Positions 36,202 to 50,404 of a stretch of 64,000 nt of DNA are shown piece by piece (the first letter of the stretch is position 1; each line of letters opens with the position of its first letter). Made by a program: the position numbers and the translations under genes. Source of the stretch: Trueperaceae bacterium. GTDB lineage: Bacteria; Deinococcota; Deinococci; Deinococcales; Trueperaceae. The notes beneath the pieces are model-generated. The model was not told the origin of the DNA. It saw only the letters and a program-made list of their open reading frames with translations, and searched no databases. The DNA lies in NCBI GenBank assembly GCA_023954415.1, contig JAMLIB010000001.1:390001-454000 (forward strand). Reading direction: 5' to 3'.

Positions 36202-37401
<1,200 letters not shown>

Positions 37402-38381: not shown

Positions 38382-39284
38382 GTGAAGGCCCGCTCTTTCG
38401 CCACGCTCCTCGCTGCCGTGTTGGCCGGCGCCGCGCTGCTCGCGGCCTGCGCCCCGGGCGCCGCCGTCCTCTCACCGCCGACGTTCAAGCTGAACGCCGC
38501 CGATTCTGGCTTCGTCCGCATCGACCCTCCCGGCGTGGGTGACGGCTCCGCGCTCTTCCGCCTGGCGCTCACCGTCGAGAACCCGAACCCGGTCGGCGTG
38601 CGCCTCGCCGGCCTCGACGGCGACCTGTACCTGAGGGATGCGCGGGCGGCGGCCTCCTCGTTCCGTGGAGGCATCGATCTCCCTGCCCGCGCCAGCGCGC
38701 CGCTCGTGCTCGACGTCAAGGTGCCCCTCGGCGCCGCCCCGGCCCTGCTCGACGTGATCGCCAACTTCGTCGCCGGCAACCCCGTCCAGTACCGCTTCGA
38801 CGCTGCCGTCACCATCGACGTCCTCGGCGCCCCGCAACGGTTCCCGACCTTCACCGTGGCTCGGGGCGAGCTGTCCAGGCCGGCCGGCCTGGCGGCGCCG
38901 CAGTTGGCCCTCACGGGCTCGGAGCTGCGCTTCGAGGCGATCGACCGGGTGAGGCTGAGCTTGCGAGGCGAGTTGACGAACCCCGGCCTCATCGGCTACC
39001 TCGCCGAGGTGCCGCAGGCCACGCTCTCCGTGGGCGGCGCGACGGCCGCTACCGTCGCGCTCGCGCCCGTCCAGGTGCCGGGCGGTGGCACCGTGCCCGT
39101 AGCCATCGAGTTCACGTTCGCCCCCCTCACGCTCGGCGCGGCCATCGCGGCGCAGGTCCAGGCCGCCTCGGTGGGCGTGGGCGGGCTCAGCCTACAAGTG
39201 AACGGCGCGTGGCGCCTCGACGCGCCCGGCATAGCGACCACGACCTTGGGCGCGACCACCATCCTGCGCGACGCGTTGCGTTAA
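38382..39284 (+). CDS. LEA14-like (water-stress/hypersensitive domain) lipoprotein
   Basis: 300 residues. The signal peptide has a lipobox, LLAAC (Cys about residue 23). Two LEA14-type immunoglobulin-like domains follow, each with a VENPNPVGVRLAGL/ELTNPGLIGYLAEV strand pair. Such domains occur in desiccation-related proteins and in bacterial envelope lipoproteins. The GTG start is 7 bases after TACGCT (38369-38374). Confidence 0.75.
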   Translation: MKARSFATLLAAVLAGAALLAACAPGAAVLSPPTFKLNAADSGFVRIDPPGVGDGSALFRLALTVENPNPVGVRLAGLDGDLYLRDARAAASSFRGGIDLPARASAPLVLDVKVPLGAAPALLDVIANFVAGNPVQYRFDAAVTIDVLGAPQRFPTFTVARGELSRPAGLAAPQLALTGSELRFEAIDRVRLSLRGELTNPGLIGYLAEVPQATLSVGGATAATVALAPVQVPGGGTVPVAIEFTFAPLTLGAAIAAQVQAASVGVGGLSLQVNGAWRLDAPGIATTTLGATTILRDALR

Positions 39285-39408: not shown

Positions 39409-41637
39409 TCACTCGTGCTCGCCAGAGCGGCGCGCTCCGAAGCGCGGCAGCCACCAGTTCGACCTGCCCGCCAGCGTCATCACCGACGGGACGAGGGCGA
39501 GCCTGACGAGCGTCGCGTCGAGGATCACCGCCACGCTCAGGCCGAGCCCCAGGGTGCGGATCAGCTCGACGTGCGAGAAGATGAGCAGGGCGAACACCGT
39601 CACCATGACGGCGGCGGCGCTCGTGATGACGCCGCCAGTAGTCGAGATGGCGGTGGCGACCGCGTCGTGGTCCGACATGCCCCGTTCGTGCGCCTCGTGG
39701 ATGCGCGCCACCATGAAGACCTCGTAGTCCATGCTCAGCCCGAAGACGATGGCGAAGATGAACAGCGGGGCGGACGTGTCGACGTAGCCCAGGACCTCGC
39801 CCAGCCCGAACAGGCGGTAGAGGATCCCGTCCTGGTGGACGAGCGTCATGACCCCGAACGCGGCGCAGACGGTGAGGGCGTTGAGCAGCACGGCCTTGAT
39901 GGGGATGAGGAGCGACTTGAAGGCCATGCCGAGGAGGAACGCCGTGGTGAGGGCCACGAGCGCGAGCGCGAGCGGGAAGTAGGCGTACAGCGCGTGCGTC
40001 CACTCGGTCCCCTGCACGTACACCCCGCCGATCGCGCCTCGCAGGCCCAGCTCGGAGAGTGCGGCCTCGATCCCCTCGTAGACCTGCGCCCCCTGCGCCG
40101 GCGTGAGCGCCCCGACGGGAACGAGCTTGGCGAGGGCGTAGCGGCCGTCGCCCGACACCGTCGCCCGGGCGAGCGGCGCGATCTCGCTCGCCAGCGCGAG
40201 CTCGGCGGTCGCGTAGTACTGGTAGAGGAAGAGCTTCGGGATGCTCTCGAGCGCCATGGGCGACGAGACGCCGGCCACGTGCTCGAGCTCGCGCAGCCGC
40301 TGCGTGAGGAGCGAGACCTTGCGCACGTTCTCGGGCCGGTAGAAGCCCTCCGGGCCGAAGTCGACGACGACGTCGAACGGGTTCAGCAGTCCCTCGAGCC
40401 CGAGCCCCTCGAGCGCGTTCAGGGTGCGCCGGGCGTCGGTGCTCGATGTCAGGCCGCGGGCGCCCGGGTCGGCCACCTGCATCCTGAGCCCCGGTAGCGA
40501 GAGGCCGACGAGCACCAGCACGCCCGTCACGAACCAGAAGCGCGGACGCCGCATGATGCGCGTGGCCTGGCCCCGCCAGAACGCGCGGCTGCGCAGCCCG
40601 GGCTCGCGCTTCGTCACGCGCAGCCAGTTCACGCGGTGCCCGAGGAGCGCGAGCGTGGCGGGCACCGCCGTGATCGCGACGAGGACGCTGACGAACAGCA
40701 CGACCATGGCCCCGACCCCGATGGAGCGGATGAACGCGACGGGCGGCACGAGGAGCGCCATGAGCCCGACTATCACGGTGAGGCCGCTGAACGCCACGGC
40801 CTTGCCGGCCGTCTCGGCCGTGCGCGCGGCGGCCTTGCGCGCGTCGAACGTGCTGCGCAACTCCTCCCTGAAGCGGTTGACGATGAGCAGCGCGTAGTCG
40901 ATGCCGGTCGCCAGCCCGAGCATCGTGACGATGGTCTCGGTGAACACGGCGAACTCGATCTGCTGGCCTACGAAGTACAGCAGGCCCAACGACGTGACGA
41001 TCGTCGTGACGGCGCTGAGGAGCGGCAGCACGGACGCCACGACCGCCCCGAACGCCACCACGAGGATGAGGAGGGAGATGGGCAGGCCGAACACCTCGGC
41101 CCGGCGGGCGTCGCGCTCGCTCACCTGCTCGAGCTCGACGACGGTCGCCGGGCCGCCGGAGAGGTCGAAGCGCAGCGCCCCGACGCTGTCGAGGGCAGCG
41201 CGCACGGCCTCGGTGACGCGCTTGCCCTCGGTCAGGCCGGAGGCGTCGAGTCCGACGAGGAGCACCGAGAGGTCGTTCGCCTCGTCGAGCAGGTCGAGGC
41301 CGCTCGCGGTGCGGTAGTCGCGCACGGAGGTCGTTCCCGGGATGCGCAGGAGGCGCGTCTTCACGTCGTCGAGGGCCTCGGCGTACTCGGGGCTTCCCGC
41401 CCTCACGCTCACGCCGTGCGCGACGGCCACGAGCGTCACTTCCTCGCCGCCCTGGAACGCCGTGGCGAGCAGGGTCTGGACCGCGGCCGCGGTGCCATCG
41501 CGGGGTGCCTCCGGCTGCGCGTTCAACACGTCGCCGACCCGCGAGGCGAACGGCAGCGACACGGCGCTCACCACGAACCACGCGCCCAACACCCAACGTG
41601 GGTAACGAGCTACGAGTCCGGCGAGTGCCCTGAACAT
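39409..41637 (-). CDS. MMPL/RND-family exporter
   Basis: 742 residues with the two-fold RND layout: one N-terminal helix, a large outer loop (about 35-185), a block of helices with GLATGIDYALLIVNRFREEL, then a second loop and a second block with FGLSMDYEVFMVARIHEAHERG. MMPL proteins export lipids and are the usual carriers of mycobacterial and hopanoid-type lipids. It starts 10 bases after the ABC ATPase stop. As the last gene of the lipid operon it is a candidate exporter of the lipid product; that is inference. Confidence 0.9.
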   Translation of the reverse strand: MFRALAGLVARYPRWVLGAWFVVSAVSLPFASRVGDVLNAQPEAPRDGTAAAVQTLLATAFQGGEEVTLVAVAHGVSVRAGSPEYAEALDDVKTRLLRIPGTTSVRDYRTASGLDLLDEANDLSVLLVGLDASGLTEGKRVTEAVRAALDSVGALRFDLSGGPATVVELEQVSERDARRAEVFGLPISLLILVVAFGAVVASVLPLLSAVTTIVTSLGLLYFVGQQIEFAVFTETIVTMLGLATGIDYALLIVNRFREELRSTFDARKAAARTAETAGKAVAFSGLTVIVGLMALLVPPVAFIRSIGVGAMVVLFVSVLVAITAVPATLALLGHRVNWLRVTKREPGLRSRAFWRGQATRIMRRPRFWFVTGVLVLVGLSLPGLRMQVADPGARGLTSSTDARRTLNALEGLGLEGLLNPFDVVVDFGPEGFYRPENVRKVSLLTQRLRELEHVAGVSSPMALESIPKLFLYQYYATAELALASEIAPLARATVSGDGRYALAKLVPVGALTPAQGAQVYEGIEAALSELGLRGAIGGVYVQGTEWTHALYAYFPLALALVALTTAFLLGMAFKSLLIPIKAVLLNALTVCAAFGVMTLVHQDGILYRLFGLGEVLGYVDTSAPLFIFAIVFGLSMDYEVFMVARIHEAHERGMSDHDAVATAISTTGGVITSAAAVMVTVFALLIFSHVELIRTLGLGLSVAVILDATLVRLALVPSVMTLAGRSNWWLPRFGARRSGEHE

Positions 41638-41647
41638 GTCCGGACGC

Positions 41648-42385
41648 TCAGCTGGCCAGGAACATGTCGATCGCTTGACGGACCTCGGTGCCCTTGGCGC
41701 TCACGTCCCCGGCCACGCGGCCGTCGCGCAAGAAGACGATGCGGTCCGCGACCGTGGCGGCGGCCGGGTCGTGCGTGACCATCACGACGGTCCAGCCGGA
41801 CTCGTCCACCCCGCGCCGGAGGAGGGCGAGGACCTCGGCGCCGGTCTTCGTGTCGAGGTTGCCGGTCGGCTCGTCGGCCAGGACCACGGCCGGGTCGTTG
41901 ATGAGCGCGCGCGCGAGGGCGACCCGCTGACGTTGACCGCCGGACAGCTGCCGTGGCCGGTGGTCGAGGCGGTCCTCGATGCCGAGCAGGGCGGTGAGGC
42001 CGGGGAGCTTGGCGCGGGCCTCGGCGAGGCGCCCCGCCACCTCGGCGGGGAGGAGGATGTTCTCCCGGGCGCTCAAGGACGGGATGAGCTCGAACGACTG
42101 GAAGATGAAGCCCAGGTGGTCGCGGCGCATGGCCGTCAGCTCGTCGTCGGATAGCCCGGCCGTCTTCCGCCCCGCCACCTCCACCGCGCCGGAGTCGGGT
42201 TGGTCGAGGAGTCCGAGCATGTGCAGCAGCGTGGTCTTGCCGCTCCCGCTCGGGCCCATGACGGCCACGAACTCGCCGACGGCGACCTCGAGGGTGACCC
42301 CTGCCAGCGCCGGGATGGTCTCGTCGCCCAGGTGGTAGGTCTTGCGCAGGTCGCGGGCCGAGATCGAGAAGGGTCGTTCAGACAT
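41648..42385 (-). CDS. ABC transporter ATP-binding protein (LolD/MacB type)
   Basis: 245 residues from the ATG at 42385. GPSGSGKTTLLHMLG (Walker A), the Q-loop segment FIFQSFELIPSLSARENI, LSGGQRQRVALARAL and VVLADEPTGNLDT match the LolD/MacB/FtsE group. It overlaps the permease gene by 8 bases (ATGTCTGA) and should power that permease. Confidence 0.93.
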   Translation of the reverse strand: MSERPFSISARDLRKTYHLGDETIPALAGVTLEVAVGEFVAVMGPSGSGKTTLLHMLGLLDQPDSGAVEVAGRKTAGLSDDELTAMRRDHLGFIFQSFELIPSLSARENILLPAEVAGRLAEARAKLPGLTALLGIEDRLDHRPRQLSGGQRQRVALARALINDPAVVLADEPTGNLDTKTGAEVLALLRRGVDESGWTVVMVTHDPAAATVADRIVFLRDGRVAGDVSAKGTEVRQAIDMFLAS

Positions 42386-44984
42386 GCTCACTCCAGGAGG
42401 CGAAGGCTTTCGTCGGTGCCATGCGGGCCGCCCGCCGGGCAGGGAAGAGCGACGCGACGAGCCCGACGACCGGCGACGCCAGCAGGGCAAGCAGCACCAG
42501 GTGCCACGGCAGCCGCGTCTGCAGCACGAAGCCCGTCAGGGCGCCCGCGCCGTTCGTGATCACGTTGGCGAGGAGCAGGCCGAAGCCGACGCCGATCACG
42601 GCGCCGATGGCCGTCACGATCACGCCTTCCGCCGTCACGAGCGCCCGCACCCCGCCCCGCGTCAAGCCGATGGTGCGCAGCACGGCGATCTCGTGGCCCT
42701 TGTTGACGAGGTTCATGCCCAACGTGTTGGCTACGCCGAGCGCCGCCACGAGCACGGCGATGGCGAGGAGGATGCGCGTCGTGGCGAACGCCTGGCTCGT
42801 AACGGCGAGGATGTGCTGGCGGTAGTCGGCGTTGAGGGTGACGTCGAGGGCCAGCTCCGGGAAGGCCGCGATGAGCCGTTCGCGTACCGCCGCCTGCGTG
42901 TCGCCCGGGAGGACGGTGACGATGTAGAGGTTGGGGTTGCCGCCCCCGAACCGCTCGATGCTCCCGATGCTGCCGATGACGGCCTCGCCCCCGCCCGTGA
43001 AGTCGACGACCACGCCGCCCACCGGGAACGCCTCGAAGCCGTCCGAGGTCCGCAGCTCCACGCTGTCGCCGCGCCCGATGCCGTAGCGGTCGCGCATGGT
43101 GTTGGCCACTAGCATCTGGCCGGCGACGAGCGCGCGGTAGCCCGCCTCGTCGTCGCCCTGACCGGGCAGGTACTGGAAGCGCCCGAAGCCGCCCCGCGGG
43201 TTGAAGCGCTCGGGGTCCACGAGCACGAGCGCGACGGAGCGCCCGCGACTGTCGGCCGCCGGTCCTTGACCAGCGCTCGCCGGCCCTTGGTCATCGGCCA
43301 GCTCCCTGAACCGCACGGCCGTGATCTTGACGCCGCTCACGACGTCGACGCCGGGTACCGCGCCGGCCCGCGCGCCGAAGTCGTCCGGGAACGTGACGGG
43401 GGTCGTCACGAACAGGTCGCCGACGACGGTCGTGTCGATCCAGTCCGAGATGGCGCGGTTGGTGCTCGCCACCATGCTCCCGACGCCGATCACGAGGCCC
43501 GTGCCGACCACGACGGTGCCGATCGCCACGCCGTTGCGACCGGCGTTGCGCTGGGCCGCGTCCGCGCCGAGCCGGCCCGGGGCGCCGAGGAGCCTGGTAA
43601 GCGGGCCCCTCGCCATGCGGCTGACGGTCGGCAGCAGGGCGGGCGCGGTGAGCGAGACGCCTACGAAGAAGAGCCCGAGCGCCGCGGTAGTGGCGTAGAG
43701 GGCGGCGGTGCCGGGCCACGGCAGGAGGGCCGCGACCACGCCGAGCCCGGTCGCGAGCAGGCCGAGCGACAGCGTGCTCCGCGCCACGGGGCCGGCGGTC
43801 GCCTGGAGCGAGGCTATCGGCGACGCCTTGCCCGCGTTCAGCGCGGGGACGACGCCGGCCACGAGCGCCGCCGCCACGCCGAGGACGCTCGCCACCACCA
43901 CGTTCTTGACGGGGATCACGAGCGTCCTGAACTCGTAACCGAGGGTGGCGGCGTTCACGTACGTCATGAGGTAGGAGAGCGCGATGCCGAGCAGGACGCC
44001 GGCCACTACGCCAAGGCCGGCGAGCACCACCGCCTCGTAGACGGCGAGCCGCCTGATGCCGCCGCGCGTCATGCAGATGGTGCGTAGTAGCGCGTACTCG
44101 CCGCCCCGTTCGACCACGGTCGCCATGAGGCTGTTGTAGGCGAGGAACGCGCCGAGGGCGAGGAGCGTGGCGGCCAGTACGCTCAGCCCCGACTGCAACG
44201 TCTGGACGATGCCGAACGTGAAGTCACCGGTCGTGGCTGGCAGGGTGACGGTGTAGTCGTCCCCGACGACGGCGGCGAGCCTGAGCCTCGTGGCGTCGAC
44301 CTGGTCGGCGCTGACGGCCTCAACCTCCAGGTTCGAGACGCGCCCTTCCAGGCGGAGCACACGTTGGAGGTCGGCCAGGTGCATGATGCCCACGCGGCCC
44401 CCGTTGGTGCTCGCTACCCCGACGGCGTCGTCCAGGAGCCCGGTCACGGTGAGCTCTGCTGGCCCGCCCGAGGTGGTGAACGCCACGGAGTCGCCGACCG
44501 CGATCCCCCGCGAGCGCGCGAAGCCGTCCGCGATGGCGATGCCGAGCGACCCGGGGGCGGGCAGCGTGCCGCCGTCGAGGCTCGCTGGCAGGTCGTCAGG
44601 GTGTTCCGTGAGGCGGCCCTGGATCTGGAAGCCGCTGTCGATGCCCGGGATGACCGAACGGTCCACGACGCGCTCCGACCGGACCGGTTCCGCGCGCGTC
44701 TGGAGCACGGGGTAGGCGGTCCTGACGCCTGCCGTTGCCCTGACGGCGGCGAGGAGCGGTTCCTCATCGAAGACCGCCCGGCCTCCCGGACCGGGCGTAA
44801 CGACGAGGTCGGCCTTGCCGGCCGCCGCTTGTAGCGCGCTGCGCAGGTTCGCCTCGACGTTGGCCCCGACGGAGAGGGTCGTGAGCACCGCGGCGATGCC
44901 GAGTCCGATGCCAAGGGTGGTGGCGAGTGCGCGCCAGGGGTGTCTGAAGAGGTTGCGCAGCGCCATGCGCCAGAGCGTACTCAC
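42378..44984 (-). CDS. ABC transporter permease, large FtsX/MacB type
   Basis: 868 residues. A first helix (about 18-40) is followed by an outer MacB-like domain, an FtsX block (helices about 265-400), a central pair of helices, a second outer domain and a second FtsX block with the motif HEIAVLRTIGLTRGGVRAL near the end. FtsX-type systems move lipids or lipoproteins, or signal, rather than import nutrients. The GTG start overlaps the glycosyltransferase stop (GTGA). Confidence 0.88.
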   Translation of the reverse strand: MSTLWRMALRNLFRHPWRALATTLGIGLGIAAVLTTLSVGANVEANLRSALQAAAGKADLVVTPGPGGRAVFDEEPLLAAVRATAGVRTAYPVLQTRAEPVRSERVVDRSVIPGIDSGFQIQGRLTEHPDDLPASLDGGTLPAPGSLGIAIADGFARSRGIAVGDSVAFTTSGGPAELTVTGLLDDAVGVASTNGGRVGIMHLADLQRVLRLEGRVSNLEVEAVSADQVDATRLRLAAVVGDDYTVTLPATTGDFTFGIVQTLQSGLSVLAATLLALGAFLAYNSLMATVVERGGEYALLRTICMTRGGIRRLAVYEAVVLAGLGVVAGVLLGIALSYLMTYVNAATLGYEFRTLVIPVKNVVVASVLGVAAALVAGVVPALNAGKASPIASLQATAGPVARSTLSLGLLATGLGVVAALLPWPGTAALYATTAALGLFFVGVSLTAPALLPTVSRMARGPLTRLLGAPGRLGADAAQRNAGRNGVAIGTVVVGTGLVIGVGSMVASTNRAISDWIDTTVVGDLFVTTPVTFPDDFGARAGAVPGVDVVSGVKITAVRFRELADDQGPASAGQGPAADSRGRSVALVLVDPERFNPRGGFGRFQYLPGQGDDEAGYRALVAGQMLVANTMRDRYGIGRGDSVELRTSDGFEAFPVGGVVVDFTGGGEAVIGSIGSIERFGGGNPNLYIVTVLPGDTQAAVRERLIAAFPELALDVTLNADYRQHILAVTSQAFATTRILLAIAVLVAALGVANTLGMNLVNKGHEIAVLRTIGLTRGGVRALVTAEGVIVTAIGAVIGVGFGLLLANVITNGAGALTGFVLQTRLPWHLVLLALLASPVVGLVASLFPARRAARMAPTKAFASWSEHV

Positions 44985-46213
44985 GTGGGCCAGTGTACTG
45001 GTACGGCCCGGCGGTCTCGAGCGGCGGCGAGGGTCGCCTTGCTCACGCTCTCGAAGCGGCCCAGTGCGGTCGAGTCCGCGGGGGGGAGCGTCTCGCCGCG
45101 CGCCAGCGCGCCGATGAGCGCGGCTGAGCGCGACGTCATGCCCGGGAAGTCGAGGGCGGCGGCCGTGCGAGCCGCCTCGGCGAGGCGCTCCGGGGCGTCG
45201 TGCCAGGTCGCCGCCGCCAGGCCTACCTCGCCGACCTTCGTCAAGCCGCCGAGCCCATGCGCTTCGAGGAACCGCACCACCGCCAGCTCGTTCAGGCCGG
45301 CGTAGGCCGTCACGAGAACGGGCCTGCCGACGGCCAACGCCTCCATCGTGCTGGCCGGCCCGGCCTTGCCAACGACGATGTCGGCTGCGGCAAGGAGCGT
45401 GGCCATCCTGTCCGTGAAGCCGAACACCGTTAGGCCCGTGCGCGCCTCGCTCAAGGCCTCCAGCCGCGACCGCAACTCAACGTTCCGCCCGGCCACGGCC
45501 AGCACGGCCACGCCGCTCGCGAGCAGGCGCTCCACCATGGCCACCGCCTCGCCCGCGACGCCCTCCGCCCCCAACGACAGTAGGCAGGTGAAGCCCGGGG
45601 CGAGGCCGAGCTCGGCGCGCGCGGCGCCGCGCGCGCTCGGATGGAGGAAGGCCTGCCTGACCGGATAGCCCACGACCCGCAGCCTGTCCTCGTGCACGCC
45701 CAGGCGCGCGAGGTCGGCCGCCGCCGCCAGGCTGGGTGCCAGCACCAGCTCCGAACGTGGCTCCGACCACAGCGCGCTGGCGTCGAACGGCTCGGTCGCG
45801 AAGACGACGACGGGCGTCCGGAGCCCGTACCGGCGGCGCGCCGCTGCGAAGACCGTCGCGAGCCAGCCGTGGTTCGCGACCACGAGGTCCGGGGCGAGCT
45901 CGTTCAGCTCCTTGGCGATGCTTCTCGCGAACGAGTCGAGGAGCGCGCCCTGCGAGGCGCGCGTCACGGCGGGCGTCAGGTCCATGACCTTCTGCCCCCA
46001 CCTGACGAGCCGCGGTTGGGCGAGCAGGGCCTTCCACTGCGCTTTGTGGCGCCGGTCGAGCCCGGCGGCGCCGAACTCGGCCATGACGTCGCTTACGCGG
46101 GTCTCGAACTCGCCCGCGTGGTCGGCGTGCAGCGCCTCGGAGAGGGCCGTCGCCGTGGCGACGTGCCCGCCGCCGGCCGCGATGGTGGCGAAGAAGACGC
46201 TGCGTCGCCTCAC
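44981..46213 (-). CDS. Glycosyltransferase, MGDG-synthase-like
   Basis: 410 residues. The start FATIAAGGGHVATATALSEALHADH is the hallmark of the MGDG-synthase/MurG-like GT family, followed by an acceptor-side VANHGWLATVF and a nucleotide-sugar segment ADIVVGKAGPASTMEALAVGRPVLV. Members put a sugar on a lipid at the inner face of the membrane. In this operon the acceptor may be the product of the SPT/acyltransferase pair. The GTG start overlaps the reductase stop by 4 bases. Confidence 0.87.
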   Translation of the reverse strand: MRRRSVFFATIAAGGGHVATATALSEALHADHAGEFETRVSDVMAEFGAAGLDRRHKAQWKALLAQPRLVRWGQKVMDLTPAVTRASQGALLDSFARSIAKELNELAPDLVVANHGWLATVFAAARRRYGLRTPVVVFATEPFDASALWSEPRSELVLAPSLAAAADLARLGVHEDRLRVVGYPVRQAFLHPSARGAARAELGLAPGFTCLLSLGAEGVAGEAVAMVERLLASGVAVLAVAGRNVELRSRLEALSEARTGLTVFGFTDRMATLLAAADIVVGKAGPASTMEALAVGRPVLVTAYAGLNELAVVRFLEAHGLGGLTKVGEVGLAAATWHDAPERLAEAARTAAALDFPGMTSRSAALIGALARGETLPPADSTALGRFESVSKATLAAARDRRAVPVHWPT

Positions 46214-47268
46214 CGCTTGTGTCCCGCTTGGCCGGGGCGTTGGCGTTTGCCGCCGCTCGGCGCCGCGCCCGGCGCGGCGCCGAGGGCGCCTCCCAAGGCG
46301 GCGACGCTCCTGGCGATACCCTCGCGCCAGGTGTAGCGCGGCGCGTACCCGAGCTCCTCCACGGCGTGGCGCAAGGAGAAGTGGACGTCGTTCAGCATCA
46401 GCCCGGCCCGGTAGCTGGTCACGGGCGGCTCGGTGCGTGGGAAGAGGGTCGACCAGGTCGCCTCGACGCCCGTGGCGAGCGCGCGCGTCGGCCTACCCGG
46501 GAGCCGCAGGCGAGGAGAGCCTCCGCCGACGGCCTCCGCGATGGCGTCGAAGAGCTCCCGCCAGCTCGGCATGCCGTTGTCGGCGAGCACGTACACGTGG
46601 CGGGCGGCGGCGGGGGCGTGGAGGGCGAGCACCACCCCCTGGGCGAAGTTGGGCGCGTAGGCCGTGTTGATGACCGTGGCGCCGCGGCGCACGAGCGGCA
46701 GCGTGCCGGTCAGGATGGCGTTGGCTACCCTCCCGAACGTGGCGTCGCGCTCGCCGAACGGCCAGAGGCCCGGGCGCACGACGACGCCCTCGAGCCGCTT
46801 CTCGCCGAGCACGAGGTCCTCGGCGAGGATCTTCGAGTAGGCGTAGGCGTTGCGCACGTTGTCGCGCGGCTGCGTGCGGGGGTCGGCGTTCCTGAACCCC
46901 GAGTAGCGGTGGACCGCGACGCTCGACACGAACACGAAGCGCGAGCACCGCGCGCCTGCCGCCTCGTGCAGCAGCGCCCTCGTGCCGACCACGTTGGTGC
47001 GGTAGAAGGCGTCCCACGGACCCCAGTCGGCCACGCGGGCGGCGGCGTGGACGACGGCGTCGACGCCCTCGCAGACCCCGCGCACACTCGCCTCGTCGGT
47101 GAGGTCGGCTCGCGTCACCTCGAGGCGCTCGTCGCCCATGAGGTGGGCGAGGTTGGCGTCCGAGCCCCAGGGGGTGACGAGAGCGCGAACGGCGTCCCCG
47201 TTGGCGAGCAGGGCCTCGCTGACGTGACTCCCCAGGAAGCCGTGGGCTCCGGTGACGAGTACCTTCAT
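46210..47268 (-). CDS. NAD(P)-dependent epimerase/reductase (extended SDR)
   Basis: 352 residues. The Rossmann motif GAHGFLGSHV, a VVHAAARV segment and the active-site YAYSK mark an extended short-chain dehydrogenase of the 3-beta-HSD group. In Caulobacter an enzyme of this type (CerR) makes the reduction step of bacterial ceramide synthesis; the same role is proposed here from context. TACCGT (47276-47281) sits 7 bases before the ATG, so part of the operon may also have its own promoter. The C-terminal 20 residues are basic and low-complexity. Confidence 0.85.
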   Translation of the reverse strand: MKVLVTGAHGFLGSHVSEALLANGDAVRALVTPWGSDANLAHLMGDERLEVTRADLTDEASVRGVCEGVDAVVHAAARVADWGPWDAFYRTNVVGTRALLHEAAGARCSRFVFVSSVAVHRYSGFRNADPRTQPRDNVRNAYAYSKILAEDLVLGEKRLEGVVVRPGLWPFGERDATFGRVANAILTGTLPLVRRGATVINTAYAPNFAQGVVLALHAPAAARHVYVLADNGMPSWRELFDAIAEAVGGGSPRLRLPGRPTRALATGVEATWSTLFPRTEPPVTSYRAGLMLNDVHFSLRHAVEELGYAPRYTWREGIARSVAALGGALGAAPGAAPSGGKRQRPGQAGHKR

Positions 47269-47293: not shown

Positions 47294-48043
47294 TCAGTTG
47301 AGCAGGTGTCCGGCGCGCGCGAGGACCGCCACGTCGAGCGAGAGGCCTATGACCAGGTGCAGCAGGGCGGGGTAGAGGACGGACCGCGAGCGCACGGCCA
47401 GCACCGCGAAGAGGAGCGAGGCGGGGGCGGCCGCAAGCACCTCGACGACGGGCTTGCCGAGGTGCACGAGCGTCGCCATCACGACGCTCAACCACACGGC
47501 CGCCGCCGGCGAGGCCGCGCGCGTGGCGACGTCGAGCACGAAGCCCCGATAGAAGGCCTCGAACGAGAGGTAGTAGCAGGCGTAGGCGACGAGCCAGATG
47601 GCCATGGTGGCGAGGCTGCGGCCCGCCCACGGACCTGGCCAGGGGTAGGTGGTCGCTAGGCCGGGGTCGGAGCTCGCGAACGCCATCAGCACCGCGGCGC
47701 CGACGGCGAGCGGGACCGCGGCGGCGAGCCCGAAGCGCCAGTCGCCGAGGCGCAGCCCGGCCCACTCGAGGCGGCCTATCAGCGCGCGGTAGAGGACGGC
47801 GGGGACGGCCAGGAGGAGCACGACGGACCAAGCGACGCTGCTCAGGGCCGTCACCGGGTCCTGCGGCGCGAGGCGCAGGAGGGTAGGCCCCGGGGTGGCC
47901 AGGTACCAGAAGGCGGCCTGGAGACCGAGCGAGGCGAACAGCAAGAACCAGTACTTGGCGCGCTCCCCGCGCGGCGCCAGCTCGCCGAGGTCGGCCAGCA
48001 CGAGCCGCAGGGCGCCGCCACGGCCGGTCCCGGGGCCGCTCAC
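47294..48043 (-). CDS. CPBP (CAAX-protease-like) membrane protein, first Glu missing
   Basis: 249 residues with about seven hydrophobic segments. The first motif reads YYLSFEAFYRGFVLD: the EExxxR pattern is present but the first Glu is Phe. The second (VMATLVHLGKP) has the His. The protein therefore has the CPBP fold but may not be an active protease. GTG at 48043 overlaps the upstream stop (GTGA) and has AAGGAG upstream. It lies inside the lipid operon. Confidence 0.72.
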   Translation of the reverse strand: MSGPGTGRGGALRLVLADLGELAPRGERAKYWFLLFASLGLQAAFWYLATPGPTLLRLAPQDPVTALSSVAWSVVLLLAVPAVLYRALIGRLEWAGLRLGDWRFGLAAAVPLAVGAAVLMAFASSDPGLATTYPWPGPWAGRSLATMAIWLVAYACYYLSFEAFYRGFVLDVATRAASPAAAVWLSVVMATLVHLGKPVVEVLAAAPASLLFAVLAVRSRSVLYPALLHLVIGLSLDVAVLARAGHLLN

Positions 48044-49149
48044 AACTCCTTCTGCACCAGCCGGTACGTCTTGTAGCGCTTCCCTCCGACCGCCTCGATG
48101 GCCCGGTTGATGGCGTGGTTGTCCTCCAGGGTCCAGCCGCACTCGCCCTCTTCGATGCCGACCGCCTTGGAGCGACGCACGACCTCGTCGATGAGCACCA
48201 GGTCGAAGCCGCGGTTGCGGTGCTCGGGCAGCACGCCGAGGATCATGAGCCGGGCGCGGTTCACGATCCGCTTGCGCCGGAGCAGCGGGAGGATCCCGGT
48301 GATGAGACGACCGTCGAAACGCGCCAGGACCTGGTTGAGGTCCGGGACGGCGATGCACACGGCGACCGGCTCGCCCTTGTACTCGAGGAACAGCGCCATC
48401 TCCGGATCGACGATCATCTTGAGGTCGTTGGCCAGGTGTTCGATCTCGGAGTTCGTGAAGGGGACGTTGCCCCAGTTCTTCTCCCAGGCCGCGTGGTGGA
48501 TGCGCTGGAGGACCTTCACTTCCTGGTGGATGCGCTTCATGTCGGCCGTCCTGATCACCGGCCGGTACCGCTCGCGCGCCCGGTCGACGAGGCGCTTGAC
48601 GCGCTCGGGGACCCGGCCCTCGTTGACGAGGTGGAAGGCGTACAGGTCCTTGACCTTGGCGTAGCCGGCGGCCGTCGCCCAGGCGAGGTACTTGGCGGGG
48701 CTCTGCGGCATCATCACGTAGGGCAGCTCGTCGAAGGCGTCGAGCTGGAAGCCGGCGCCGTCGTTCATCGTCGGGTTGACCGGCCCGCGCAGCGCGCGCC
48801 TGCCCAAGCTACGCGCCTCCGCCTCCACCGCGGCGAACAGCGCCGCGGCCACCGCCTCGTTCTCGGCCTCGAAGAAGCCGAAGAAGGCGAGGTCGTCCTC
48901 CGGGTGGGTCTCGTTGTGGAGGTCGTCGTCGAGCAGCGCGATGCGGCCGACGACCTTGCCGCCTTCGCGCGCCAGGTAGAGGGTGGCGCGCGCGTGCTCG
49001 AAGAACGGGTTCTTCTTGGGGTCGAGGAGCTCGAACTGGGAGACACGCAGCGGCGCCACCCACGTGGGGTCCGACGCGTACTTCCGGTAGGGGTAGAGGA
49101 CGAACTCCTTGAACGCTCGGCGACCGCTGACGCGCTCGACGTTGACCAT
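48040..49149 (-). CDS. GNAT-fold N-acyltransferase, bacterial ceramide synthase-like
   Basis: 369 residues. The segment GPVNPTMNDGAGFQLDAF, then ELPYVMMPQSPAKYLAWAT and YAKVKDLYAFHL, has the shape I recall for the large GNAT-like family of bCerS (GP..x.N.E.G.L.DGFD.PP..M.YNP.YY ... GF.K.KDL.AY). A typical GNAT core follows (LMILGVLPEHRNRGFDLVLI). In Caulobacter bCerS N-acylates the long-chain base. The gene lies 7 bases after the SPT-like gene and overlaps the CPBP gene by 4. If it is not bCerS it is still an N-acyltransferase-like protein. Confidence 0.72.
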   Translation of the reverse strand: MVNVERVSGRRAFKEFVLYPYRKYASDPTWVAPLRVSQFELLDPKKNPFFEHARATLYLAREGGKVVGRIALLDDDLHNETHPEDDLAFFGFFEAENEAVAAALFAAVEAEARSLGRRALRGPVNPTMNDGAGFQLDAFDELPYVMMPQSPAKYLAWATAAGYAKVKDLYAFHLVNEGRVPERVKRLVDRARERYRPVIRTADMKRIHQEVKVLQRIHHAAWEKNWGNVPFTNSEIEHLANDLKMIVDPEMALFLEYKGEPVAVCIAVPDLNQVLARFDGRLITGILPLLRRKRIVNRARLMILGVLPEHRNRGFDLVLIDEVVRRSKAVGIEEGECGWTLEDNHAINRAIEAVGGKRYKTYRLVQKEL

Positions 49150-49156
49150 GCGCGCT

Positions 49157-50404
49157 CTAGATGACGCCGAAACGCCTGCCGACCTCCGCGAATGCGTGCA
49201 GGAGGCGGTCGAGGTGCTCGGGCTCGTGGTTGGCGTTGACGCTCGTGCGGATGATGGACCTGCCAGGGGCCACGCCTGGTGGCAGGGCGGGCGTCGTGAA
49301 GACGCCTAGTTCCCAGAGCGCCTTCCAGAACGCCATGGCGAGCTCGTCCGGCCCGATCAGGACGGGCACGATCGGGGTCTGCGACCCGAGGGTGTCGAAC
49401 CCGAGCGCGTTCATGCCGTCCCGCAGGTGCTTCACGTTGCGCCAGAGCTTGTCGAGGTGCTCCGGTTCCGACTCGATGATGTCGAGGGCCTCGAGGGCGG
49501 CGGCCATCTGCATGGCCGGCAGGGCCGCGGTGAAGATGAAGGGCCTGGCATGGTGCTTGACGTAGTTCACCACCGCGCGGTCGCCGGCCATGAAGCCGCC
49601 CACGCTGGCGAACGACTTGGAGAAGGTGCCGACGATGACATCGACCTCGTGCTCGAGCCCGAAATGCTCGCCCGTGCCGCGGCCGTGCTTGCCGAGGACG
49701 CCGCTGGCGTGGGCGTCGTCGACGATAAGGCGCGCACCGTAACGCTTCTTCAGCCTCACGATGCCCGGCAGGTCGGCGATATGGCCGCTCATCGAGAACA
49801 CGCCGTCCGTGACGATGATCCTGCCGCCCGGCTTGCCGGCGTCCGCCTCGAGCATGCGCTCCAGGTCGGCCAGGTCGCCGTGCTCGTACTTGCGCAAAGT
49901 AGCGTAGGAGAGGCGCGCGGCGTCGTAGAGCGAGGCGTGGTTCTCCCGGTCGTAGTAGAGGATGTCGTGCCTGCCGGCGAGCGCGGAGACGACGGAGAGG
50001 CAGCCGAGGAAGCCGGCACTGAACGTCAGGACGGCTTCGCGCTGGAAGAAGAGGGCGAGGCGGCGCTCGAGCTCCTCGTGCAGCGTCAGGGTGCCCGTCA
50101 GGAAGCGCGAGCCCGTGCAGCTCGTGCCGAAGTCGTCTAGGGCGCGCCTGGCCGCCTCCTTGAGGCGCGGGTCCTGGGTCAGCCCCAGGTAGTCGTTCGA
50201 GCCCGTGATGACCATCTCCCGGCCCGCGACCGTGACCGTGCCGCCGTGCTGCGAGGCGATGGCCTTGAAGTACGGGTGCATGCCCATGCTCACGGCCTCG
50301 TCCGCCCTGCGGAACTGGAGGGCCTTCGTGAACGCGTCCTGCGCCTTGGCTACCGGCGCCCTGTCACTTCCGCTGGGCATGACCTCTGACAAAATCTCCT
50401 CCAT
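49157..50404 (-). CDS. Alpha-oxoamine synthase, serine palmitoyltransferase-like
   Basis: 415 residues from the ATG at 50404. The PLP fold-type I family is clear (SNDYLGLTQDPRL, TGSRFLTGTLTLHEELE). The pattern points to SPT rather than KBL or BioF: GVFSMSGHIADLP, DDAHASGVLGKHGRGTGEHFGL, and GTFSKSFASVGGF with the PLP lysine. SPT condenses serine with an acyl thioester into 3-ketosphinganine. It is the first gene of the eight-gene run. TAGGAT (50425-50430) lies 20 bases upstream. The long open frame further upstream looks non-coding. Confidence 0.85.
   Translation of the reverse strand: MEEILSEVMPSGSDRAPVAKAQDAFTKALQFRRADEAVSMGMHPYFKAIASQHGGTVTVAGREMVITGSNDYLGLTQDPRLKEAARRALDDFGTSCTGSRFLTGTLTLHEELERRLALFFQREAVLTFSAGFLGCLSVVSALAGRHDILYYDRENHASLYDAARLSYATLRKYEHGDLADLERMLEADAGKPGGRIIVTDGVFSMSGHIADLPGIVRLKKRYGARLIVDDAHASGVLGKHGRGTGEHFGLEHEVDVIVGTFSKSFASVGGFMAGDRAVVNYVKHHARPFIFTAALPAMQMAAALEALDIIESEPEHLDKLWRNVKHLRDGMNALGFDTLGSQTPIVPVLIGPDELAMAFWKALWELGVFTTPALPPGVAPGRSIIRTSVNANHEPEHLDRLLHAFAEVGRRFGVI

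Follow-up and report, generated by a model that had tools for sequence, protein, structure and literature searches.

A candidate glycosphingolipid operon of Trueperaceae, its MMPL transporter and an independently retained FtsX-type ABC pair

We propose, with confidence that is about evenly balanced, that an eight-gene operon of a Trueperaceae bacterium makes, and probably exports, a glycosylated sphingolipid by way of an MMPL transporter, and that the FtsX-type ABC pair encoded in the same operon is a general extractor of lipids or lipoproteins. Of the two pumps, we regard MMPL as the more likely to export the sphingolipid. The window (the whole stretch of 64,000 nucleotides that was analysed) belongs to a genome of 3.2 Mb in 30 contigs, 96% complete; gene content, intact motifs, conserved gene order, and presence or absence were read directly from this genome and its relatives, and folds from structure prediction.

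All eight genes lie on the minus strand and lack internal stops, Pfam confirms the family of each, and the permease, ATPase, and MMPL genes are the sixth to eighth; the last line below describes a neighbor outside the operon.

49157-50404, minus strand: SPT-like alpha-oxoamine synthase, 415 aa, first gene of the operon (PF00155; PLP-Lys motif TFSKS)
48040-49149, minus strand: GNAT-fold acyltransferase, 369 aa, candidate bacterial ceramide synthase (bCerS-like; weak PF00583 match)
47294-48043, minus strand: CPBP (Rce1-like) intramembrane protein, 249 aa, GTG start (PF02517; motif EAFYR)
46210-47268, minus strand: extended SDR, candidate ketoceramide reductase (CerR-like; PF01370/3Beta_HSD)
44981-46213, minus strand: GT28 lipid glycosyltransferase of MGDG-synthase type, 410 aa (Pfam; plant MGD1 in the PDB)
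42378-44984, minus strand: duplicated FtsX/MacB permease, 868 aa, 10 predicted TM helices (PF02687 and MacB_PCD)
41648-42385, minus strand: ABC ATPase of LolD/MacB/YbbA type, 245 aa (ABC_tran, 110 bits)
39409-41637, minus strand: MMPL-family RND transporter with an MmpL3-like fold, 742 aa (PF03176, 240 bits)
38382-39284, plus strand: LEA2-domain protein with a lipobox-like signal (LAAC), convergent with the operon

From the first gene to the last, the junctions are a 7-base gap (SPT-like to GNAT), a 4-base overlap (GNAT and CPBP), a 25-base gap (CPBP to SDR), two 4-base overlaps (SDR and GT28, GT28 and permease), an 8-base overlap (permease and ATPase), and a 10-base gap (ATPase to MMPL). An earlier note on this DNA had placed the permease, ATPase, and MMPL genes right after a lipid glycosyltransferase; the last three junctions reproduce its geometry base for base, and Pfam agrees with the families it gave to the four genes. 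Promoter and terminator scans returned little above chance. Because about nine genera share the synteny of the block, at identities of roughly 40 to 98%, its arrangement is not a chance one. The LEA2-domain gene adjoins the ATPase-FtsX pair whether an SPT-like gene is present or absent, and its product may act with the ABC pump as a periplasmic partner. A D-Ala-D-Ala ligase gene of the window contains 5.6 in-frame copies of a 12-base unit (positions 36993-37059), and the resulting NLQA repeats are perhaps a variable linker.

The first five genes resemble a bacterial pathway for ceramide synthesis and glycosylation. The combination of SPT, GNAT, and SDR fits the three-gene ceramide pathway of Caulobacter, the GNAT protein being the candidate bCerS, and the GT28 protein matches plant MGD1 in the PDB at 3.7e-26. 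Assignment of the first enzyme relied on a tree, since an identity of 44% to a Kbl/BioF enzyme and 41% to SPT made sequence identity useless for telling the two apart. The SPT-like protein groups with S. multivorum SPT and the GNAT-linked SPTs from other phyla (support 94/88), separately from Kbl/BioF and from CFAT (cysteate acyltransferase); S. multivorum SPT is also its best PDB match, and SPT (CFB type) its best NCBIfam model at 428 bits against a cut-off of 640, although it scores under every NCBIfam SPT cut-off. When the GNAT alignment was scanned against genome contigs, 80 loci were returned, from Myxococcus, Gemmatimonadota, Ignavibacteria, Acidobacteria, Zixibacteria, and others. SPT lay near GNAT in 50 of the 80, in many phyla and nearly always directly adjacent, and an SDR lay near SPT-GNAT in 26 loci of other phyla; neither MMPL nor this FtsX family was found near GNAT in any of the 80. 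The biosynthetic core is therefore general, and the pump neighbors are a local addition.

That the lipid is not a ceramide at all, and is instead the product of another alpha-oxoamine synthase such as a long-chain 1,2-diol or sulfonolipid glycolipid, strikes us as quite improbable. It would accommodate the NCBIfam scores below cut-off, the peaks consistent with 1,2-diols reported for T. radiovictrix (PMC3072082), and genome G022, which has GNAT, GT28, and MMPL genes with no SPT-like gene; but the tree puts the SPT-like protein with the solved SPT and the GNAT-linked SPTs rather than with CFAT or Kbl/BioF, and families f3 and f4, assumed to include the diol-making kin of Thermus, have only matches of Kbl/BioF level (about 36 to 46%).

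Several variants of the biosynthetic genes were seen among the loci. A UDP-galactopyranose mutase gene is part of the block in G017 and G019 and is found beside GT28 in G012 (L041:10076-11185, L034:8629-9726, L083:1-255), which suggests a galactofuranosyl lipid in these three genomes. In family f5, SPT (56-62%) and GNAT (39-42%) are found at separate places (L098, L099, L100, L101; L046-L049) in genomes that have no FtsX ortholog. Genus g16, where SPT and GNAT are gone, has kept beside FtsX a diverged GT28, accompanied in G020 by an SDR, that looks like a relic of the block (L073:11754-13897, L081:11393-11902). In Aminicenantes and one Acidobacteriota MAG, the surroundings of a GNAT homologue include NusB and an ABC ATPase and no SPT (L120, L125, L127, L136, L146, L183).

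The earlier note had proposed to check whether the three transport genes always travel with the SPT-like gene; the ABC pair does not. An FtsX ortholog is present in 18 of 21 Trueperaceae species with SPT and in 15 of 16 without it (p = 0.6), so the pair shows no association with SPT. In SPT-negative species it sits in a fixed frame, SecA-RsmD-HNH-Ddl-LEA2-ATPase-FtsX-Dus followed by EFP, AccB, AccC, NusB, and FolD, pieced together from G018, G020, G043, G045, G046, G051, G011, and G023 (loci L072, L073, L110, L071, L080, L081, L088, and L109), each contig showing part only; the pair occupies this same site wherever a contig shows it, mostly with no adjoining MMPL gene. In most SPT-positive species the block lies between FtsX and the EFP side, and LEA2 and the ATPase flank the MMPL gene. 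The pair is retained near the block in about nine genera, and in about seven FtsX, ATPase, and MMPL are contiguous; in G021 the MMPL gene is about 160 kb away. Family f2 has FtsX orthologs, beside PlsY in two genomes, and no SPT ortholog. The SPT and FtsX trees are broadly alike, and the SPT-negative groups look like losses. These data suggest that the ABC pair is an older gene pair of the family, retained when the lipid genes were lost; arrival of the pair together with the sphingolipid genes is not supported, and the root of the trees is uncertain, as the f2 sequences are placed within their SPT-positive part.

This distribution bears directly on the proposal that the ABC pair extracts the glycosphingolipid and passes it to MMPL, or the reverse, as a single dedicated system, which we regard as unlikely. 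Co-transcription geometry in the window's species, the contiguity of the three genes in about seven genera, and the handling of lipids by both fold types (PMC12646458, PMC11352979) all speak for such a route, and a function shared by pair and block would fit their closeness. Set against these are i) the presence of the pair in 15 of 16 SPT-negative species, and its fixed site; ii) G016, a 100% complete genome with the SPT block and MMPL and no FtsX ortholog, and G008, which has the block and the ABC pair and no MMPL; iii) the f5 genomes, with SPT and no FtsX ortholog; and iv) the opposite-strand genes that divide block from ABC pair in G001, G002, and G004. Thus, of what the earlier note had read into this locus, the lipid context and the operon hold, and the one two-step route for both pumps is not supported, nor is an obligatory order of ABC first and MMPL second. 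Occurrence apart from the biosynthetic genes, which the note had named as evidence against its own reading, is what we find for the ABC pair and do not clearly find for MMPL, and no resistance or efflux regulators were seen beside the genes.

Nor does the 4-base overlap of GT28 and permease carry much weight as a sign of joint function. In most relatives a PF03706 gene (LPG_synthase_TM, flippase-like) adjoins GT28 or FtsX (for example L031:10082-11131, L040:10088-11092, L043:8518-9564, and L035:11392-12420). In G001, G002, and G004, which belong to the same genus as the window, this gene and an opposite-strand GT4 gene separate GT28 from FtsX, joined in G001 and G004 by a long SDR gene. The window's species group (G000, G003, and G005) has no PF03706 ortholog, only paralogs at 29% identity or less, and the tight GT28-FtsX join is limited to these three genomes and is not the family pattern. 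Because sister species have intervening genes, the overlap is best read as derived by loss within the species group and the co-transcription as recent, and we reject it as evidence of joint function for GT28 and FtsX. An operon join can therefore mislead: no link in the window's species is tighter than that between glycosyltransferase and permease, and none is more recent or less conserved.

The MMPL gene is another matter, being found with SPT more often than not, as the earlier note would lead one to expect. Across 39 Trueperaceae species it is present in 15 of 22 with SPT and 3 of 17 without (Fisher p = 0.003), and in the better genomes only, in 13 of 15 and 3 of 11 (p = 0.004); shared ancestry inflates these species-level p values, and since species are not independent, the count by genus (11 of 14 and 1 of 3; p = 0.19, not significant) is the safer one and the association only suggestive. 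Comparison with relatives thus suggests that MMPL and the lipid genes tend to go together: in genus g7, for instance, both SPT and MMPL occur only in G050. MMPL is absent from SPT-positive G008 and G013 and from all of genus g11 (4 of 7 SPT-positive); its absence from G003 probably reflects a contig that ends inside FtsX. Conversely, MMPL occurs without SPT in G006 and G022, and in G041 SPT is probably absent for assembly reasons. The MMPL gene of G022 lies beside GT28, PF03706, GT4, and a GNAT gene, with the ABC pair elsewhere, and MMPL may thus be tied to the glycosylation step no less than to SPT. In genus g2, GNAT, GT4, and PF03706 are found together, G022 adding GT28 and MMPL (L051:3953-11811, L050:7794-11331), and no SPT-like gene was found in the g2 genomes at the threshold used. 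The MMPL orthologs of Trueperaceae form one clade, apart from those of f4 and f5.

MMPL and FtsX are broad families, and it might be argued that neither pump moves the sphingolipid, both being generic efflux or envelope-maintenance pumps that adjoin the block by chance. Several genomes do have SPT without MMPL or without the ABC pair, and SPT in other phyla has neither pump nearby. We nevertheless think this improbable, given the species-level association of MMPL with SPT, the linkage of MMPL to GT28 and PF03706 even where SPT is missing (G022), the lack of any efflux regulator seen nearby, and the fact that MmpL3 and HpnN are lipid carriers.

We therefore return to MMPL as the likelier exporter, in an inferred scheme that covers all substrates, the transport direction, and any division of labor. 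The SPT-like enzyme would condense serine with an acyl thioester, the GNAT enzyme would N-acylate the product, the SDR would reduce it, and GT28, working on the cytoplasmic side, would attach a sugar. The flippase-like PF03706 protein that most relatives have, lost in the window's species group, could turn the lipid over, and MMPL, proton-driven and MmpL3-like, would carry it from the outer face of the inner membrane toward the outer membrane. The FtsX/ATPase pair would be a mechanotransmission ABC system of YbbAP/LolCDE/MacB type (Type VII), kept independently of the sphingolipid genes, most likely extracting a more general envelope lipid or lipoprotein and sharing the operon here by position. 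That glycosphingolipids of Trueperaceae are exported through an MMPL (RND) pump, in most species with the aid of a PF03706 flippase, we put forward tentatively.

The ATPase has intact Walker A, LSGGQ, Walker B, and GNLD motifs, and an AlphaFold2 model of the permease (pLDDT 80) shows 10 TM helices, with TM1 and TM7 each followed by a periplasmic domain. Its best Foldseek match is YbbAP (9ge6; TM 0.57/0.61, 15% identity), followed by LolE, BceAB, and MacB; in profile searches YbbP is matched in one segment only (E 1.3e-4), behind MacB and LolF/LolCE. Since fold and topology are YbbP-like and the profile is nearer MacB/LolF, the pair is a Type VII system that is YbbP-like by architecture rather than by established YbbAP orthology. 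The YbbAP-TesA system of E. coli likewise has 10 TM helices, periplasmic domains between TM1-2 and TM7-8, and a separate ATPase; the window's permease, however, shows no whole-length sequence homology to YbbP, and no TesA-type gene lies beside the window's ABC pair. In the SPT-negative frames LEA, ATPase, FtsX, and Dus are contiguous, and most leave no space for an extra gene such as TesA. LolC and LolE are 4-TM permeases that work with LolD and deliver to LolA, whereas the window's permease is a single 10-TM protein; LolA (PF03548) was not found in 11 genomes of the order, and we rejected the permease as the cell's sole LolCE, since further permeases with an FtsX domain, of about 400 aa or more, are encoded in G000. 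The heterocyst glycolipid exporter DevBCA is also a MacB-type ABC system linked to glycolipid export, but the window's ATPase scores 203 bits against a DevA family cut-off of 295.8, its permease is duplicated with 10 TM helices, and the operon has no gene for a MacA-like adaptor.

MMPL shares with MmpL3 (the trehalose monomycolate exporter) and HpnN (the hopanoid transporter) its MMPL domains, RND fold, lipid context, and an Asp-Tyr proton relay in both halves, the MmpL-type pairs D247-Y248 and D637-Y638 being intact and invariant in 21 homologues. Its predicted model superposes on MmpL3 at TM 0.82/0.85 and on HpnN at 0.68, but identity in the MmpL3 fold match is 24% and the NCBIfam scores are far below the curated cut-offs (MmpL3, 259 against 1400; HpnN, 49 against 752).

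For the operon as a whole, a close parallel is Caulobacter, where Spt, bCerS, and CerR are accompanied by second copies LptC2/F2/G2 and the potential flippase CC_1166 (PMC11324152, PMC11087976). There SPT, N-acyltransferase, and reductase are encoded together with candidate transport genes, as their candidate counterparts are in the window; in the window, however, the transport candidates are MMPL and a YbbAP-like ABC pair (with PF03706 in relatives) rather than Lpt copies, the headgroup enzyme is a GT28, and the block has no noticeable gene for an acyl carrier protein. LptF/G copy number is uninformative as a sphingolipid marker, there being three in all 11 genomes, SPT-positive and SPT-negative alike. 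Papers of 2024 state that the transporters or flippases moving bacterial sphingolipids have not been identified (PMC11087976; PMC11324152), and a literature search for ceramide with MMPL found no paper. Sphingolipid enzymes joined to an MMPL gene, and in relatives to a flippase-like protein, thus provide named, testable transport candidates; if the reading is right, they would be the first candidate answer in this phylum to how bacterial sphingolipids reach the outer membrane, by an MMPL and PF03706 route different from the Lpt-like path proposed for Caulobacter.
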